Below, piece after piece: positions 10,852-62,111 of a stretch of 64,000 nucleotides of DNA. The notes beneath the pieces were generated by a model that saw only the letters and a program-made list of their open reading frames with translations, did not search any database and had not been told where the DNA came from. Within the stretch, counting starts at the first letter, position 1. Each line of letters starts with the position of its first letter. The translations under genes and the position numbers were made by a program. Origin of the DNA: Thalassotalea sp. HSM 43 (GTDB taxonomy: Bacteria; Pseudomonadota; Gammaproteobacteria; Enterobacterales; Alteromonadaceae); assembly GCF_004752005.1 (NCBI RefSeq), contig NZ_CP038493.1, positions 2,008,302 to 2,072,301 of the forward strand. The letters run 5' to 3'.

Positions 10852-10928
10852 GGTGGCTGTAGCTCAGTTGGTAGAGCCCCGGATTGTGATTCCGGTTGTC
10901 GTGGGTTCAAATCCCATCAGCCACCCCA
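10852..10928 (+). tRNA. hisR: tRNA-His (anticodon GTG)
   Basis: A complete cloverleaf with an encoded CCA end. The anticodon loop is TTGTGAT with anticodon GTG. The acceptor arm GTGGCTG/CAGCCAC is perfect, and the extra G at position -1 (10852) needed by histidyl-tRNA synthetase is present opposite C73. It stands alone rather than in a tRNA cluster and is followed by degenerate copies of its own 3' half. Confidence 0.97.
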
Positions 10929-10970
10929 CTTATTTTCTAAATACAATTCCACTTTCAGATGTATTGATTC

Positions 10971-11450
10971 GCCATGACGCGAAATCACAGGTGATTCCGC
11001 TATTCTGAATTGGCGTGGGTTCAAGTTCCGCCAGCTATCTCACTTATTTTCTAAATACAATTCCACTTTCAGATGTATTGATTCGCCACGACGCGAAATC
11101 ACAGGTGATTCCGCTATTCTGGATTGGCGTGGGTTCAAATCCCATCAGCCACCCCATTTACCACGACGCGAAATCACAGGTGATTCCGCTATTCTGAATT
11201 GGCGTGGGTTCAAGTTCCGCCAGCTATCTCACTTACTCCCTTATATTATTAATAGCCTACTTCGCATTTACCACGACGCGAAATCACAGGTGATTCCGCT
11301 ATTCTGGATTGGCGTGGGTTCAAGTTCAGCCAGCTATCTCACTTACTCCCTTATATTATTAATAGCCTACTTCGCATTTACCACGACGCGAAATCGCAGG
11401 TGATTCCGCTATTCTGGTTTGGCGTGGGTTCAAGTTCCACCAGCCCCACT
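10971..11450 (+). repeat. five tandem repeats echoing the tRNA-His 3' half
   Basis: Five copies of a core of about 70 bases begin at about 10971, 11085, 11161, 11271 and 11381; the last three are spaced 110 bases apart. Each core has GACGCGAAATC, then CAGGTGATTCCGCTATTCTG, then GGCGTGGGTTCAA. The second copy ends in CAGCCACCCCA exactly like the tRNA; the others end in diverged forms such as CCGCCAGCTATC. Two kinds of spacer join them, one repeating the bases right after the tRNA and one starting CTCCCTTATATTATTAATAG. No anticodon arm or 5' half is present, so these are not tRNA genes. The layout recalls the rtT repeats after E. coli tyrT. No ORF is supported in 10929-11601. Confidence 0.8.
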
Positions 11451-55600: not shown

Positions 55601-56329
55601 TCTTGGGATTGTCCTGATGTGATCACCTATACAGGTCTGGCAACAGAATCTGGTTGTGACTTAAATGAAAACCCAGGTCGCTTTGAAATAACTGAAGCGG
55701 GCACCTACTACTTACTGTTTAGATCGGGTGCCAATACCTATGGTACAACCGGTGTGACTTTGGATAACTGGACAGTAAAACAAGTCAATCCTCCGGTTAC
55801 TGAGCCGCCGGTAGCAACAAACTTGATCACCAACGGTTCATTTGAAGATGACAGTGGTTGGACGGTAGTAAGCCAATGGGGTGAAGATGTCGATGGTAAT
55901 GGTGTTGTCACCATCGCCGATGGTGTCGCCACGTTCGGTGAAACTGTTGCTGGTCCTTGGACTAAGCACATGGGTATGTATACGGTTGTTGATTTGCAGC
56001 CAGGTACCTATCAGTTTGACATGGACATGTCCTATGCCGATATCAACGAGCTATGGGGTGAAGTCTATATTGGTACCACGCAACCTGAAGATCACAGTGA
56101 ATACAATGGCGATCAACAAGTGCTTGTTGCTTATAACTCGTGGGATTGCCCAGATGCTATAACGTATACCGGCGCCGCTACTGCGTCTGGTTGTGATGGC
56201 AGTGATAACCCTGGTCAATTTGAGATCACAGAAGCCGGTACCTATTACTTGTTGTTCCGTTCAGGCGCTAATACCTACGGTACAACAGGAGTCATTCTAG
56301 ATAACTGGTCATTAGTTGCGGTTGAATAA
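52691..56329 (+). CDS. multi-module clan-A (GH5-like) glycosidase lipoprotein
   Basis: The 1212-residue lipoprotein has lipobox LSGC (Cys32) and an acidic/Pro linker. A TIM-barrel glycosidase domain (about 78-380) follows, with acid/base Glu217 in EAHNEP and nucleophile Glu315 in NTEFWPGD. Then come a fascin-like beta-trefoil (about 385-525), two CBM6-like domains (about 560-690 and 720-850) and two CBM4/9-like domains (about 865-1030 and 1045-1212). The last two are near-identical at the DNA level, offset by 537 bases. The barrel resembles GH5 and other clan-A families; I cannot fix the family. An endo-beta-glucanase role is inferred from the neighbouring GH3 gene. Confidence 0.88.
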   Translation: MASNDINLAGNKLARIIKSALLGATIVTLSGCFGVDSDNDGIESAVSAPDTTTQQPDDSSQPEPEIPDLALADIEVRDRPHIDTSLGYNVIQTDMNTSLRGVSLSLDGGDPYNAEQAKTIPTIEQLESLVHDYGFNTLHVYLEGDAEQNPDAVGVNETLADELVELTRQAKMYLIITIGNNGENGAIHSMEKSLAFWNLYGAKYKDETHVIYEAHNEPVSLINENWTEQDWQRQAQMYEAIRTVAPDTMILLGSFMSFYGGSEAIAGADSLKEQFPDIWDNAAFAFHAYWDLPGVESTIAAFKGSTDYPALVNTEFWPGDTKNGYNEAFESHHIGWMQFEWLGANNLDLGHIKYSLDSFGTVWRPDSGVATWPAAGTPTVPFGEEIGLYNRAGHAFLSVDESGNLMVSDHSFDGEGQDTFVVVDAGDDGHVALKAANGKYLTVADFGTPMTATADEIGSTEKLKWLELPSGDIALRPWAGSGHLVGLISDGDDAHTGYIGSAGDGALLNGANTFLVVTEAAEAPLPMLDEPSDNPPGPFYGQALPVPTNGAGAHPYNMDAPNGRLWAADYDFGGEGVAYHDSSAVNLGDAYRFDEAVDVEATNEGYTAVGFFEDEEWMEYTIDVAQAGNYIVTLRTASATGGLFNLESNCVDLTGTVATPNTGWWDIWQDIDVEVTLETGVQKLRVVSGGGFNLMNMDIQAGGEGSTEFGEGCQWVPEEPADVRVEAEEWTSVIELPDGEVVLETTQDVDGNQNVGYIDPGDWMEYSVEIPEAGCYIADYRVATESGSEGFTLSFDGVVTDTVTIPPTGGWQSWITLSNAIELNGGMQTMRFDAIGGAQNVNWFEFNLVDASECEEQGEVVLGDNLLTNGAFDDATGWTVVSQWGEDVDGNGVVTVADGVASFTETVAGPWTKHMGLYTTIELQPGTYQFDMDMSYENINELWGEVYIGSMQPLDHSEYNGDQQVIKAYNSWDCPDVITYTGLATESGCDLNENPGRFEITEAGTYYLLFRSGANTYGTTGVTLDNWTVKQVNPPVTEPPVATNLITNGSFEDDSGWTVVSQWGEDVDGNGVVTIADGVATFGETVAGPWTKHMGMYTVVDLQPGTYQFDMDMSYADINELWGEVYIGTTQPEDHSEYNGDQQVLVAYNSWDCPDAITYTGAATASGCDGSDNPGQFEITEAGTYYLLFRSGANTYGTTGVILDNWSLVAVE

Positions 56330-56501
56330 TCGTCACTAGTTAATGAGCATCAATTGCTGAGTGTAGCGCTCAGTGATTGATGCTTTTTTCAAATCAATCC
56401 AAGCGTTACAGCAACAATATAAATCATTGTTTTACGGCGATTCTGCCATTGAGTTGGTTGTTGTAACTTGCTATTAGAATAATTATAAGTTGGGATTTAT
56501 T

Positions 56502-57773
56502 ATGGCCACAGCACCTGTTTCTGCTGAGCAACCGACGAATGCATCGACCACAAACGGTCATGCAAATTACCGTTTTGCGTTAACCTCTCTAACCTCATTA
56601 TTTTTTATGTGGGGTTTTATTACCTGCTTAAACGATATCTTGATACCGCATTTGAAAGGCATCTTTGATCTGACTTATGCGCAAGCTATGTTGATTCAAT
56701 TTTGTTTCTTTGGTGCGTATTTTATTGTCTCATTACCTGCGGGTGTACTGGTTAAAAAACTGGGCTATCAATACGGTATTGTCAGCGGTCTGATCATCGC
56801 TGCGATGGGGTGTTTGTTATTTTATCCTGCGGCATCAATGCACAGCTATCCGGTATTCTTGTTCGCGTTATTTGTACTGGCAGCAGGTATTACCGTGCTG
56901 CAAGTCTCAGCTAATCCATATGTGAGTTGTTTGGGCAAACCTGAAACCGCGTCGTCTCGTCTTACTTTAACCCAAGCGTTTAATTCATTGGGTACCACGG
57001 TTGCGCCTTTCTTCGGTGCCTACCTTATTCTTAACGAAACCGCTGAAGCTATGGTCAATGCACAACAACAAGCCGAAGCAGTGCAAATGCCATATGTTCT
57101 ACTTGCCGCTATGCTGCTTATTTTGGCGGCGATTTTCGCGAAATTGAAATTACCTCATATCGAACACCAACAAGCACAGGAAAGCTCTTCGAGCAGTATG
57201 GGCAGTGCTTGGCAATATTCACACTTGGTGTTAGGTGCGGTTGGTATCTTTGTTTACGTTGGTGCCGAAGTGGCCATCGGCAGTTTCCTTGTTAACTATT
57301 TTCATGAGTTACAAATACCTGGTTTAGAGACAGAAGCACAAGCGGCAAAATATATTGCCTATTACTGGGGCGGCGCCATGGTTGGTCGTTTCATCGGCGG
57401 TCTGGCGATGCAAAAAATAGCGGCCGGTAAAGCGCTTGCTTTTAATGCGGTCGCTGCCATTTTGCTGATTGCCATCACTATGGTGAGCGATGGGCAACTG
57501 GCGATGTGGTCTATTTTATTGGTCGGCTTATGTAACTCAATCATGTTTCCAACCATTTTCTCGCTAGCGGTTACCGGACTTGGTCGTCACACATCTCAAG
57601 GTTCTGGGGTGTTGTGTTTGGCCATTGTTGGTGGTGCGATTATTCCGTTAGCACAAGGTTTGTTAGCCGATATGCTCGGCGTACAAACGTCATTTTTCTT
57701 ACCGATTATCTGTTATGCGTTTATCGTGTTTTATGGTCTGGTCGGTTCAAAACCTAAATTAAAGCAAGCGTAA
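56502..57773 (+). CDS. MFS sugar permease, FucP/GluP (glucose/galactose) type
   Basis: The protein has about 423 residues and 12 membrane helices. It has the family features [19 protein letters not shown] near the start and [13 protein letters not shown] in helix 5. Such proton symporters bring glucose, galactose or fucose across the inner membrane. It is one base from overlapping the GH3 gene downstream (TAATG), which suggests that the sugar released by GH3 is the cargo. I preferred ATG 56502 to the TTG at 56490. Confidence 0.92.
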
Positions 57774-57796
57774 TGAATACGTATAAAAGGGATGCT

Positions 57797-60358
57797 ATGA
57801 ATTTTAAGCTTAAAAAAATTGCCCTAGGACTGGCGACGAGTTTGCTCGCCCTCGGGTGCAGTGAGACGACTAATGACAGAGCCTATATGGCTGCGCAAGC
57901 GCCGCAAGATGCGTCTGCCGTATGGCCTAAGTTAGATATTGCCGTAAAACCAGATCAAGCTGTTGAAGAACGTGTTAACGAGATCTTGGCAGGTATGACT
58001 TTACAGCACAAAGTTGCGCAGATGATTCAACCTGAAATTCGAGATATCAGTGTTGCAGATATGCGCAAATACGGTTTTGGTTCATACCTTAACGGTGGCG
58101 GGGCGTTTCCAGATAACAATAAGCATGCAACACCACAAGATTGGATAAAACTTGCCGAAGATATGTATCAAGCGGCCATTGATGACTCGCAAGATGGTTC
58201 AACCATTCCAACCATGTGGGGCACTGATGCTGTGCATGGTCATAATAATGTCATTGGCGCCACCTTGTTCCCACATAACATCGGTTTAGGGGCAGCGAAT
58301 AACCCCGCGCTTATCGAGCAAATCGCTGCCATAACGGCAAAGGAAGTTATGGTCACCGGCATTGATTGGGTGTTTGCACCGACCGTCGCCGTGGTTCGTG
58401 ATGACCGTTGGGGACGAACCTATGAAGGCTACTCCGAAGATCCTCAAATAGTTGGTGAGTATTCAGCCGCTATCGTTAAGGGTTTACAAGGCAGTGCTGA
58501 TGGAGATTTTCTGTCTGATCAACGTGTTATTAGTACAGTTAAGCACTTTTTAGGTGATGGCGGTACTGAGAAAGGCGATGATCAGGGCGATAATTTGGCG
58601 TCTGAACAACAACTGTTCGATATTCATGCACAAGGTTATGTTGGTGGTTTAAGCGCAGGTTCACAATCGGTTATGGCATCATTTAATTCGTGGCATGGCA
58701 AAAAAAATCACGGCAATAAATACCTTTTGACTGACGTGTTAAAAGAGCAGATGGGTTTTGATGGCTTTGTTGTTGGTGATTGGAACGGTCACGGACAAGT
58801 GCAAGGTTGTAGCAATGAAAGTTGCCCGCAAGCTGTAAATGCTGGTTTGGATATCTTCATGGTACCGACGGATGCGTGGAAACCATTGTATGAAAATACC
58901 ATCGCCCAAGTTGAAGCGGGTGACATACCAATGGCCAGAATTGACGATGCGGTTAAGCGTATTTTGCGAGTCAAAGTGCGTGCTGGTTTGTTTGATAAAC
59001 CAAGTCCTGCGAAACGTCCATTCTCTGGCAAAACTGAGTTGATTGGTGCCAAAGAGCATAGAGACGTTGCACGTCAAGCGGTGCGTGAGTCTTTAGTGTT
59101 ATTGAAGAACAATGATGGTCTATTGCCTCTATCGCCAAACCAACACGTATTGGTAGCAGGTGATGCGGCAGACAACATTGGCAAACAGTCCGGTGGCTGG
59201 ACCATTACGTGGCAAGGCACCAATAATTCCAATGAAGAATTTCCTGGTGGTAGCTCGATCTATGATGGTATATCTGAGCATGTTACTGCTGCAGGCGGTA
59301 AGGTATCGTTATCCGTTGATGGCAGTTTTGAAGAAAAGCCTGATGTAGCGATCGTGGTATTTGGTGAAGAGCCATATGCTGAAGGTCATGGCGATCGCAA
59401 CAATCTTGATTATCAAAGTGGTGAAAAAACCGATTTAGCCTTATTAAAATCTTTGCAAGAGCAGGGCATTCCCGTTGTGTCTGTGTTTATCAGTGGTCGC
59501 CCATTGTGGGTTAACGCCGAACTCAATGCCTCGGATGCTTTTGTTGCTGCTTGGTTACCTGGTTCAGAAGGTAACGGTGTTGCTGAAGTATTGATGACCG
59601 ATGCAGATGGTAATGTGCAGTACGATTTTGTCGGAAAATTATCTTACAGCTGGCCAAAAAGTCCTGAGCAAGCCGTGGTAAATAAAGGTGATACGATTTA
59701 CGAACCGCTACTGCCATATGGTTTTGGCTTAACCTATCAAGACAAATCGACGTTGGCGAATAACTTGGATGAAACGGTAACCTTTGATGCTGAAACGTTG
59801 CAAAATCGCAAAATTTTTAGTGGCCAATTGCATAAGCCTTGGTTGATGTTTTTGCAATCTGGTGAGCAATCAATTGATGTTGAATCAAACGCCCATCAAG
59901 TCGGCGCAGTAAGTTATCGTACTATTGATAAGTCAGTTCAAGAGGACGCCTTGAAAATCACCTTAGATGGCAGTGAAAATGCCGGCTTGCGTATTACGAG
60001 CGAAAGTAATTTTAGAGAAGATTTACGGCCGCAAATGGTGCTTGAGTCGGCCTTATCATTTAACGTCAACGTATTACAGTCGCCAACTGCACCTGTGATG
60101 TTGTCGATGATTTGTGAAGTCGGTCTTAATGAAGCGTGTACAGCGGATCTGGATATCACTGAGATGATTGCCAAACTGGAACCAAATAGTTGGCAAAATG
60201 TTTCTATCGACCTTAATTGCTTTAAGCAACAAGGTATGAGCTTTGCAGACTTAAATACACCATTTCAGTTAACTTCAAAAGGTAAAGCAGAGTTTGGCAT
60301 TGCCGATATCGAGTTAGTGCCGCACTTGGCAAAACATGCAACGATAAGTTGTCAGTAA
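57797..60358 (+). CDS. GH3 lipoprotein exo-beta-glucosidase (ExoP-like)
   Basis: The protein has about 853 residues and a lipobox ending in LGC (Cys21). The GH3 N-terminal barrel has WGTDAVHGHNN and KHFLGDGGTEKGDDQG, with nucleophile Asp328 in VVGDWNGHG. The second GH3 domain follows (about 420-640), then a C-terminal jelly-roll binding domain (about 680-853), as in the exo-1,3/1,4-beta-glucanase ExoP of Pseudoalteromonas. It would trim beta-glucan oligosaccharides to glucose. The ATG at 57797 has AAAGGGA upstream and gives a clean lipoprotein signal; an ATG at 57773 overlapping the permease stop is possible. It ends at a strong terminator. Confidence 0.93.
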   Translation: MNFKLKKIALGLATSLLALGCSETTNDRAYMAAQAPQDASAVWPKLDIAVKPDQAVEERVNEILAGMTLQHKVAQMIQPEIRDISVADMRKYGFGSYLNGGGAFPDNNKHATPQDWIKLAEDMYQAAIDDSQDGSTIPTMWGTDAVHGHNNVIGATLFPHNIGLGAANNPALIEQIAAITAKEVMVTGIDWVFAPTVAVVRDDRWGRTYEGYSEDPQIVGEYSAAIVKGLQGSADGDFLSDQRVISTVKHFLGDGGTEKGDDQGDNLASEQQLFDIHAQGYVGGLSAGSQSVMASFNSWHGKKNHGNKYLLTDVLKEQMGFDGFVVGDWNGHGQVQGCSNESCPQAVNAGLDIFMVPTDAWKPLYENTIAQVEAGDIPMARIDDAVKRILRVKVRAGLFDKPSPAKRPFSGKTELIGAKEHRDVARQAVRESLVLLKNNDGLLPLSPNQHVLVAGDAADNIGKQSGGWTITWQGTNNSNEEFPGGSSIYDGISEHVTAAGGKVSLSVDGSFEEKPDVAIVVFGEEPYAEGHGDRNNLDYQSGEKTDLALLKSLQEQGIPVVSVFISGRPLWVNAELNASDAFVAAWLPGSEGNGVAEVLMTDADGNVQYDFVGKLSYSWPKSPEQAVVNKGDTIYEPLLPYGFGLTYQDKSTLANNLDETVTFDAETLQNRKIFSGQLHKPWLMFLQSGEQSIDVESNAHQVGAVSYRTIDKSVQEDALKITLDGSENAGLRITSESNFREDLRPQMVLESALSFNVNVLQSPTAPVMLSMICEVGLNEACTADLDITEMIAKLEPNSWQNVSIDLNCFKQQGMSFADLNTPFQLTSKGKAEFGIADIELVPHLAKHATISCQ

Positions 60359-60380
60359 TTTTACTAACGTGAACTTACTT

Positions 60381-60412
60381 AAAATCCCAGACCTAGGTTT
60401 GGGATTTTTTTT
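60381..60412 (+). terminator. terminator of the permease-GH3 operon
   Basis: AAAATCCCA and TGGGATTTT close a stem with an inner GACC/GGTT helix, followed by T8. Confidence 0.92.
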
Positions 60413-60480
60413 GTCTACTGAGCTTGGTTAGATTGTTGAGTGATTGATATCTTGTGTCGCTCTAGCCGCTTCAAAACATC

Positions 60481-60830
60481 GAAGGTTGTATATTTGTGAC
60501 GCACTGATTGTGCTAATGCAAATGGCTTCATGGACGAAGGTTGTATATTTGTGACGCACAGGATGTGCTAATGCAAATGGCTTCATGGATGAAGGTTGTA
60601 TATTTGTGACGCACAGGATGTGCTAATGCAAATGGCTTCATGGACGAAGGTTGTATATTTGTGACGCACAGGATGTGCTAATGCAAATGGCTTCATGGAC
60701 GAAGGTTGTATATTTGTGACGCACAGGATGTGCTAATGCAAATGGCTTCATGGATGAAGGTTGTATATTTGTGACGCACAGGATGTGCTAATGCAAATGG
60801 CTTCATGGACGAAGGTTGTATATTTGCGAC
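60481..60830 (+). repeat. six tandem 55-bp double-hairpin repeats
   Basis: Six full units begin at 60481, 60536, 60591, 60646, 60701 and 60756, with a 20-base partial seventh. They are almost identical; the first has a variant GCACTGATTGTGC, and the fourth base of TGGA(C/T)G alternates. Each carries hairpin 1, GCACA-GGA-TGTGC, and hairpin 2, CTTC-ATGGA(T/C)-GAAG across the unit junction. The period is not a multiple of 3 and no ORF runs through, so it is non-coding. The gap 60359-60893 holds nothing else except the operon terminator. It belongs to the same family as 878-1010 and 387-416. Confidence 0.92.
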
Positions 60831-60893
60831 GGTGCTATTTCTCTACTTTGTGAACACTGCTATTGCTTCAAATCTGCCGCTTAAAGCAGCGGC

Positions 60894-62111
60894 TTAACCG
60901 CTGCTTTCAGATATGAGCTTGCCAGATATTTTGTCAGTTGCCTTTACCGATTGTCGATATTTCGATGGTGTCATGCCTTCAAACTTTTTAAAGAAGGTAT
61001 AAAACACGGACTTACTATTAAAGCCCACATCCAAATAAATATCGGTAATTGTGGTATCTTTATGGAGCGGCGAGATCAGCATTTTCTTGGCTTCTTCTAT
61101 GCGGTATTTATTGATAAATTCATAGAAGTTAATACCGTAATGACGATTTATCAGCATCGATAAATCACGAGGGATGATATTCAGAGTTTCCGCCAATTTA
61201 TCTAGCGTGATATCTGGATCCATATAGGCCTTGCTCGCTAACATTGCCTTTTCTATTTCATTGGCTTTTTCTGGATTAAAGAAAGGGTCTTCGACCGGTT
61301 TGTTGGTCGGTTCTTTATTGCTCACCTTCTTAAACGTTATAAAGTGGCGAACCGCCAAAAACACTAATAAGTTTACTAGAATAAATGACGCATAATTGCC
61401 GGTAAGGCCTATATAAAAATAGACACCGTCACCTAGAGTAAAAAAGAAACTAAGTACTTTAACCGCCGATAACACGGCTTCGGCAAGCATCACCGTCATA
61501 AAACCAATGACTAGACTCGTTAGCCAATGGATATGGCCGCTTTCGATATTTGATTGGGTGTCCTGTAAACGGCTGCTGTATTTGCTAATCAAGACAAAGC
61601 AAGAGATGACATAGATAACTCGAACAATTTTACTGAACAGGTCGACACCAACAAAGCCACCACTGTATACAAACGATTCGGTCAGCAACATTTGCATACG
61701 CACGTTTTCACTGTAAGAGAAATACGTACTCGACATAAACACCACGTAAACAAGCAACGGAACAAGGTGGATAAGGTCTTTTTTCTTAAGGGTAAAATCT
61801 TTATAAATTAATGATTTAATGCACAAATATAACAGAGCGCCATCCAAAAAATACGCCAGTTGTGGAATAAAATATAAATGTGGCCATTGGGATCGTACCT
61901 GAAGCTTAAATTCAGCTCCCCACATCATTAATTCATTAATCGGGATCAACGCATGAGCAAGCAAAAAGGCAATAAGAAACCACGTACTTTTTAAACGACT
62001 GGTATTTGTAACATACAACAACGCACCAAAAAACAAACATTGGATCGCGGTCATGATCAGGATTACGTCATGAAAATTGAACAATACAGTCTGGAATTCA
62101 AACGGCTTCAT
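60894..62111 (-). CDS. membrane-bound AraC-family regulator
   Basis: The 405-residue protein has about seven membrane helices in its first 260 residues and a C-terminal AraC helix-turn-helix domain (about 285-390) with LDKLAETLNIIPRDLSMLIN and ITDIYLDVGFNSKSVFYTFFKKF. It senses a signal at the membrane and binds DNA directly. It lies inside the glycan locus, divergent from the second glycosidase gene, so it is the best candidate to act on the TTYGART-N9-GGACGAC motif. That link is inference. Confidence 0.88.
   Translation of the reverse strand: MKPFEFQTVLFNFHDVILIMTAIQCLFFGALLYVTNTSRLKSTWFLIAFLLAHALIPINELMMWGAEFKLQVRSQWPHLYFIPQLAYFLDGALLYLCIKSLIYKDFTLKKKDLIHLVPLLVYVVFMSSTYFSYSENVRMQMLLTESFVYSGGFVGVDLFSKIVRVIYVISCFVLISKYSSRLQDTQSNIESGHIHWLTSLVIGFMTVMLAEAVLSAVKVLSFFFTLGDGVYFYIGLTGNYASFILVNLLVFLAVRHFITFKKVSNKEPTNKPVEDPFFNPEKANEIEKAMLASKAYMDPDITLDKLAETLNIIPRDLSMLINRHYGINFYEFINKYRIEEAKKMLISPLHKDTTITDIYLDVGFNSKSVFYTFFKKFEGMTPSKYRQSVKATDKISGKLISESSG

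Follow-up and report, generated by a model that had tools for sequence, protein, structure and literature searches.

What is the head-to-tail array of GGA-bearing hairpins at 60480–60831 of the window: a sponge RNA for CsrA, or a repeat of another kind? The window is the 64,000-nucleotide stretch of Thalassotalea sp. HSM 43 that we analysed, and it sits in a genome whose single contig measures 4,014,670 bp. An earlier note, made from the letters of this stretch, had proposed that 60481–60830 is either a CsrA sponge or a new structured repeat family, and had mentioned REP-like DNA palindromes as a further option. Our analysis favours an unusual REP-like repeat over a CsrA sponge.

The tandem array claimed by the earlier note is real. 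Tandem Repeats Finder reports it on the + strand with a period of 55, 6.4 copies and 97% matches, and a glycoside hydrolase family 3 (GH3) gene and an AraC-type regulator gene converge on it. The features of the locus are as follows, where R1 denotes the model of the repeat and P1 the first of its two hairpins.

57773–60358, + strand: GH3 gene, upstream of the array
60381–60408, + strand: terminator-like hairpin behind the GH3 gene and ahead of the array (scan: 1 found, 0.5 expected in shuffles)
60480–60831, + strand, which is the GGA strand: array of 6.4 head-to-tail copies of a 55-bp unit (Tandem Repeats Finder, sequence)
60497–60556, + strand: array unit 1, P1 loop without GGA (R1 match, genome 2068798–2068857; sequence)
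60552–60611, + strand: array unit 2 (R1 match, 78.2 bits)
60607–60666, + strand: array unit 3 (R1 match, genome 2068908–2068967)
60662–60721, + strand: array unit 4 (R1 match, genome 2068963–2069022)
60717–60776, + strand: array unit 5 (R1 match, 78.2 bits)
60772–60831, + strand: array unit 6 (R1 match, genome 2069073–2069132)
60894–62111, − strand: AraC-type regulator gene, downstream of the array and convergent with it

GGA occurs 11 times on the + strand of the array and not once on the other strand. The earlier estimate of about 12 sites is one too high. Unit 1 reads CACTGATTGTG in place of GCACAGGATGTGC, and its P1 loop carries no GGA. The hairpin sequences given in the earlier note hold for part of the array: GCACAGGATGTGC is present exactly five times and CTTCATGGATGAAG exactly twice, with CTTCATGGACGAAG found four times. 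The bare GGA count is ordinary for the composition (Markov mean 6.3, maximum 14, 1000 sequences), whereas the 11 occurrences of the extended motif A-(N)-GGA-Y are unusual (Markov mean 1.5, maximum 8). P1 of this array has the 5-nt loop form AGGAT. No Rfam family reaches its gathering score over the array. Only one ortholog of the AraC-type regulator (E ≤ 1e-30) was found elsewhere in the genus and no array unit lies beside it, a weak test because the GH3 gene is also missing from its neighbourhood.

The dispersed copies define a unit of 55–62 nt in the order TGACG, hairpin P1, TAATG, hairpin P2, TGACG. Specifically, P1 consists of a 4-bp stem with the loop ANGGAY, and P2 of an outer stem of about 5–7 bp that encloses an inner 4-bp stem with the same loop. 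The second hairpin described earlier is therefore present but bigger than stated, since an outer stem, CAAAT/ATTTG in the array and of different bases in other copies, encloses it. Among 147 distinct matches from a sequence-only search, both loops keep C-ANGGAY-G while the other stem bases vary. In particular, the loop A, G, G and A are 94–100% conserved and the second base is variable; the sixth base is T or C in 81% of P1 and 96% of P2 loops, and conservation of the closing C and G is 90% each in P1, 96% and 99% in P2. The TGACG tag is conserved at 90–100% at the 5′ end and 89–100% at the 3′ end among the matches that reach the respective end; it is unpaired at the P2 end, and its last G pairs at the P1 end in the model.

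Both sides of the stems change together. Changes on both sides affect 12 of the 15 pairs in A1, a plain MAFFT alignment of 18 seed sequences hand-picked for variety; the corresponding figures are 14/15 in A2 (95 distinct matches) and 15/15 in A3 (29 distinct matches of a second set, mostly from other genera), two alignments that were fitted to the structure and hence lean towards it. The covariation score is reached by none of 500 shuffles in any of the three alignments, and every slid version of the structure scores more than threefold lower; the number of both-side pairs in A2, on its own, is reached by 63/500 shuffles. The compensatory stem change around fixed loops that the earlier note described, with covariation as the way to check it, is thus borne out. 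In single units, 165/227 GGA lie in predicted hairpin loops.

The repeat is widespread. At E ≤ 0.01, its own genome (4.01 Mb) holds at least 42 R1 matches (150 candidates scored) and the genus Thalassotalea at least 298 across 15/15 genomes (150 candidates scored per genome); at the family level, under stricter filters (E ≤ 1e-5), it is found in 44/147 genomes and 23/52 genera. Together with the covariation, these counts support the idea of a new structured repeat family, and the literature searched, whose coverage was partial, contained no description of this two-hairpin repeat. The motif search suggested for the window, GTGACG-N{6,24}-CTAATG, returns 11 occurrences against a mean of 0.10 and a maximum of 1 in 100 shuffles, although one of the 11, at 56310–56336, is unlike the repeat family. 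A pattern scan of species genomes gave seven stretches, five of them in Thalassotalea; we attribute the two in spirochaetes, which have no R1 match at E ≤ 0.01, to chance.

Head-to-tail series with a 55–57 bp period recur at further loci and in other genomes, for example at G014:C3:22–482 and G004:C1:3061694–3062033 in two other genomes of the genus. The former, a relative of the array with a 57-bp period, lies at a contig end and at a different locus. Of the 131 R1 matches that start with the tag, 37 come directly after another unit; neighbouring units share one TGACG tag, which yields the period of 55–57 bp. In the region L040, a short head-to-tail repeat with CTTCCGGGCATAAATACATCCCTG lies immediately right of a solo copy of the unit. 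Within the window, the minus-strand recurrences noted earlier at 387–416 and 878–1010 are present as R1 units at 351–412 and 843–1059, next to two palindromes with a CGTC tag.

351–412, − strand: solo unit that runs antisense to the rRNA, located between 23S and 5S (R1, 67.7 bits)
843–902, − strand: unit behind the 5S gene (R1, 73.8 bits)
898–953, − strand: unit behind the 5S gene (R1 match, genome 2009199–2009254)
949–1004, − strand: unit behind the 5S gene (R1 match, genome 2009250–2009305)
1000–1059, − strand: unit behind the 5S gene, tag common with the palindrome at 1055 (R1, 79.7 bits)
1055–1082, + strand: CGTC-tagged palindrome CGTCATTGCGGC GAAG GCCGCAACCTCC
1163–1195, − strand: second CGTC-tagged palindrome

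TGACG is the complement of CGTCA, and the CGTCA of the palindrome at 1055 is at the same time the tag of the unit at 1000–1059. This arrangement is common: an inverted repeat, such as TTGCGGCCTTCGCCGCAA or TCCCACCCAAAAACACGGTGGGA, ends directly at the TGACG tag in 26/88 distinct first units for which the upstream sequence sufficed, some of the 26 being near copies. The control values are 32/3000 random window positions and 2/65 TGACG sites, the latter including the array's own, which could not score. Additionally, TGACGG or CCGTCA is found within 300 bp outside the units in 10/16 own-genome clusters, versus 23% of random window positions.

The copies also have a characteristic setting. From the window and fetched regions we assembled 77 clusters, using 106 of 117 R1 matches from 9/15 genus genomes picked from the best listed matches; of the 11 omitted matches, nine score at most 29.1 bits and two, of 38.2 bits, fall within an already counted cluster, and region L116 was left out of the match set because it overlaps the window. 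Neighbours were protein ORFs from our own calls (those below 130 aa counted as unclear) and rRNA, to the exclusion of tRNA genes; two of the 77 clusters coincide in part with an ORF (155 or 187 aa). On this basis 25 clusters are rrn-linked, 17 lie between convergent and 15 between tandem genes, none between divergent genes, and 20 are unclear. Among the 40 clusters of assignable direction, 37 have the GGA strand on the antisense side, counts that rest on related copies and on our own ORF calls. It is antisense to rRNA in 25/25 rrn-linked clusters and antisense in 12/15 tandem-gene clusters, with 3/15 sense (binomial p 0.035, uncorrected for descent).

Replication strand fares poorly as the cause of this orientation: convergent clusters whose origin is known (placed by dnaA) split into 4 co-directional with replication and 5 against it, at a small n of 9. 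Transcription looks like the better correlate, with the two directions inseparable in rrn and tandem clusters. As the array itself sits between converging genes, its own orientation is neutral, and the orientation argument bears on the family, not directly on the array.

We give a probability of about three in four to the reading that a REP/BIME-like DNA element with the tag TGACG, a two-hairpin repeat that is non-coding and dispersed, has been multiplied head to tail at this locus to form the array. This reading is built on the unit, its copies, covariation, tag sharing, location and orientation as observed, and the REP-like palindromes that the earlier note had kept as an alternative fit better than its sponge. 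That note had also named a genome-wide scatter on both strands next to a REP-associated transposase as evidence against a sponge RNA; the scatter is there, and no R1 match lies in the 7-kb regions around the two Y1_Tnp genes of this genome. Copies of the element sit next to rRNA operons or between genes that converge or run in tandem, and a CGTC-tagged palindrome often has its tag in common with them; the units could fold on either strand when single-stranded. Both the spread of copies and the upkeep of their palindromes may depend on DNA processes, namely single-strand hairpins during replication or repair or a trans-acting enzyme, and arrays would lengthen when units slip or exchange unequally. 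The GGA strand would be disfavoured in transcripts, an idea weakened by the three sense clusters, which retain their GGA loops.

Several observations run against a REP-like DNA element. The loops of both hairpins closely fit a CsrA/RsmE site, a fit not required of a DNA element, and GGA loops are kept in the three sense clusters. No mobilising enzyme was found, with Y1_Tnp as the enzyme examined. Finally, on the GGA strand G-U deviations outnumber A-C deviations by 60:33 when counted by distinct row. Counting each genome, pair and type once gives 26:24 (27:25 including the poorly paired 30–50), the expectation if neither strand is a folded RNA, and the counts leave undecided whether either strand is favoured.

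The same counts bear on an RNA element on the other strand, whose UCC-loop hairpins would stabilise 3′ ends or aid termination, as has been proposed for REPs. The UCC strand is sense in 37/40 clusters, and the two array stretches fold better on this strand than their shuffles (8 and 0 of 200 as good); moreover, the accessible text of PMC3733652 assigns REPs a role downstream of genes. However, such an RNA should show more A-C than G-U deviations, and the actual numbers are 33 versus 60 by row and 24 versus 26 by genome. The folding advantage is also confined to two of the three stretches tested, 41/200 shuffles of 877–930 being as good. We consider this explanation rather unlikely.

Readings that give the GGA strand a role start from the loops. 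The wider CsrA consensus is familiar, and the match of the loops to a CsrA/RsmE site that the earlier note reported is correct: both hairpins of the family present C-ANGGAY-G. One version combines these sites with the orientation. Here the GGA loops would be CsrA sites, the cost of soaking up CsrA would hold the repeat on the silent strand of rRNA operons and of gene rows throughout the bacterial family, and convergent arrays such as 60480–60831 would be latent sponges, possibly released through read-through or antisense transcription. We find this version unlikely, with a probability well below that of the REP-like element.

The sponge proper would require a + strand transcript whose 11 GGA sites, with one CsrA dimer per pair, titrate CsrA in the manner of CsrB and RsmZ. 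Besides the loops, it is favoured by the single csrA gene in the genome and by the P2 core CTTCATGGATGAAG, which is one base off the hcnA RNA CUUCACGGAUGAAG (GGGCUUCACGGAUGAAGCCC in the accessible text of the RsmE work, PMC13287468). The CsrB/RsmB model RF00018 scores 22.7 bits on the array (E 0.00023), yet its gathering score is 71 and the whole-genome E of the match is 0.00345. A consensus scan of 60200–61000 found no + strand promoter-like site and no terminator-like site trailing the array, the hairpin at 60381–60408 being the sole one. Nor does the GGA strand of the array fold better than shuffles (44/200 as good; 44, 44 and 59 of 200 for the three stretches). For the family, a sponge role is unsupported because the GGA strand is mostly antisense, including the rrn-linked and tandem-gene clusters. 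A separate CsrB-like gene in the window also argues against it.

1500–1796, + strand: CsrB-like RNA gene, 13 GGA in the sense direction and 0 on the other strand

This gene ends in a terminator-like hairpin with a T run and has a match in 13/14 other genus genomes, eight near full length (at least 284 of 321 query bases; alignment of 9) and five partial; the sole genome without one is 78% complete. It reaches 17 bits with RF00018, also under the cut-off, so the RF00018 score decides little. Similarly, whole-molecule folds place 2/11 GGA of the array and 2/13 of the CsrB-like gene in hairpin loops and hence fail to separate the two. On balance, a working CsrA sponge at this locus is very unlikely.

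Mobilisation as a REP by a host Y1 transposase (RAYT) that spreads the unit is hardly credible: the palindromes are dispersed and the genome has two Y1_Tnp genes, but neither is flanked by the repeat (0 R1 matches in the 7-kb regions around both), and Y1_Tnp, present in 12/15 genus genomes, is missing from G001 (single contig, 26 matches) and from G010 (13 matches).

Other tandem repeats were seen alongside. A second GGA-rich array, 48 bp × 7.0, lies behind tRNA-Thr at about 400.8–401.2 kb of the same genome (L124 2331–2667); it gives 24.8 bits with RF00018, has pieces in 13/14 other genus genomes, and its unit equals 16 codons and reads open by eye. Relative to replication, this 48-bp GGA-hairpin family has 32 co-directional and 32 opposed members among 64 typed rows, a count that omits neighbouring rows and genomes without a usable origin. 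At L124 1603–1939, also in the own genome, 4.3 tandem copies of 78 bp resemble the initial portion of the tRNA-Phe gene next to them. At 10896–11444 of the window, two tandem arrays, 114 bp × 2.3 and 110 bp × 2.6, start in the tRNA-His gene, and their units contain pieces resembling the tRNA-His 3′ end.

Here a repeat with the looks of a textbook CsrA sponge finds its better explanation in a REP-like DNA element, which calls for caution when sponge RNAs are sought by motif. At rRNA operons the orientation is one-sided and the loops fit CsrA, which raises the question of whether a global RNA-binding protein shapes the placement and direction of a repeat.

Among named RNAs, TwoAYGGAY (RF01731) is the nearest to the repeat by its loops, as it too has two hairpins with AYGGAY loops; RF01731 has no match at E ≤ 5 in 60360–60900 or 600–1250. 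According to the accessible parts of the sources, TwoAYGGAY was described from human gut, gamma-proteobacteria and Clostridiales (PMC2864571) and was proposed to bind CsrA from motif matches (PMC4333381). The array resembles CsrB/RsmB RNA (RF00018) and RsmE-type sites in its repeated GGA loops closed by C-G, and differs in its score and in the promoter and terminator scan, as does the repeat in being dispersed with a mostly antisense GGA strand. For the RrA/RrB/RrF RNAs of E. coli, the available text of PMC8144298 describes CsrA-related sequence at rRNA operon ends, a feature in common with the repeat; they are co-transcribed with rRNA, whereas every rrn-linked cluster here has the GGA strand in antisense. 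In work on Csr RNAs of Pseudoalteromonas, one RNA partially matches in Thalassotalea, as far as the accessible text goes (PMC11882849).

The closest comparison is with the CGTC-tagged REPs. In the accessible text of Di Nocera et al. 2013 (PMC3733652), these have 8–9 bp stems beginning with A-T pairs and loops of 4–5 nt, form mostly head-to-head dimers with clusters being rare, lack transposase linkage and lie between converging or unidirectional genes. Measured against that description, our unit likewise has a CGTC tag at an end, which it holds in common with such palindromes, lies between convergent or tandem genes, with no divergent case among the 77 clusters, and has no transposase link, as judged from the two Y1_Tnp genes of its own genome. 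It differs in having two hairpins whose stems measure 4 bp in P1 and, in P2, up to 7 bp (outer) and 4 bp (inner) instead of 8–9 bp, ANGGAY hexaloops and no CCA tail, and head-to-tail arrays rather than head-to-head dimers. The repeat works like CGTC-tagged REPs and is outside their four families. In our best reading, what is new is a two-hairpin version of tagged REP-like repeats that is locally amplified, and the family would extend the tag-based REP scheme to two-hairpin units and head-to-tail arrays.
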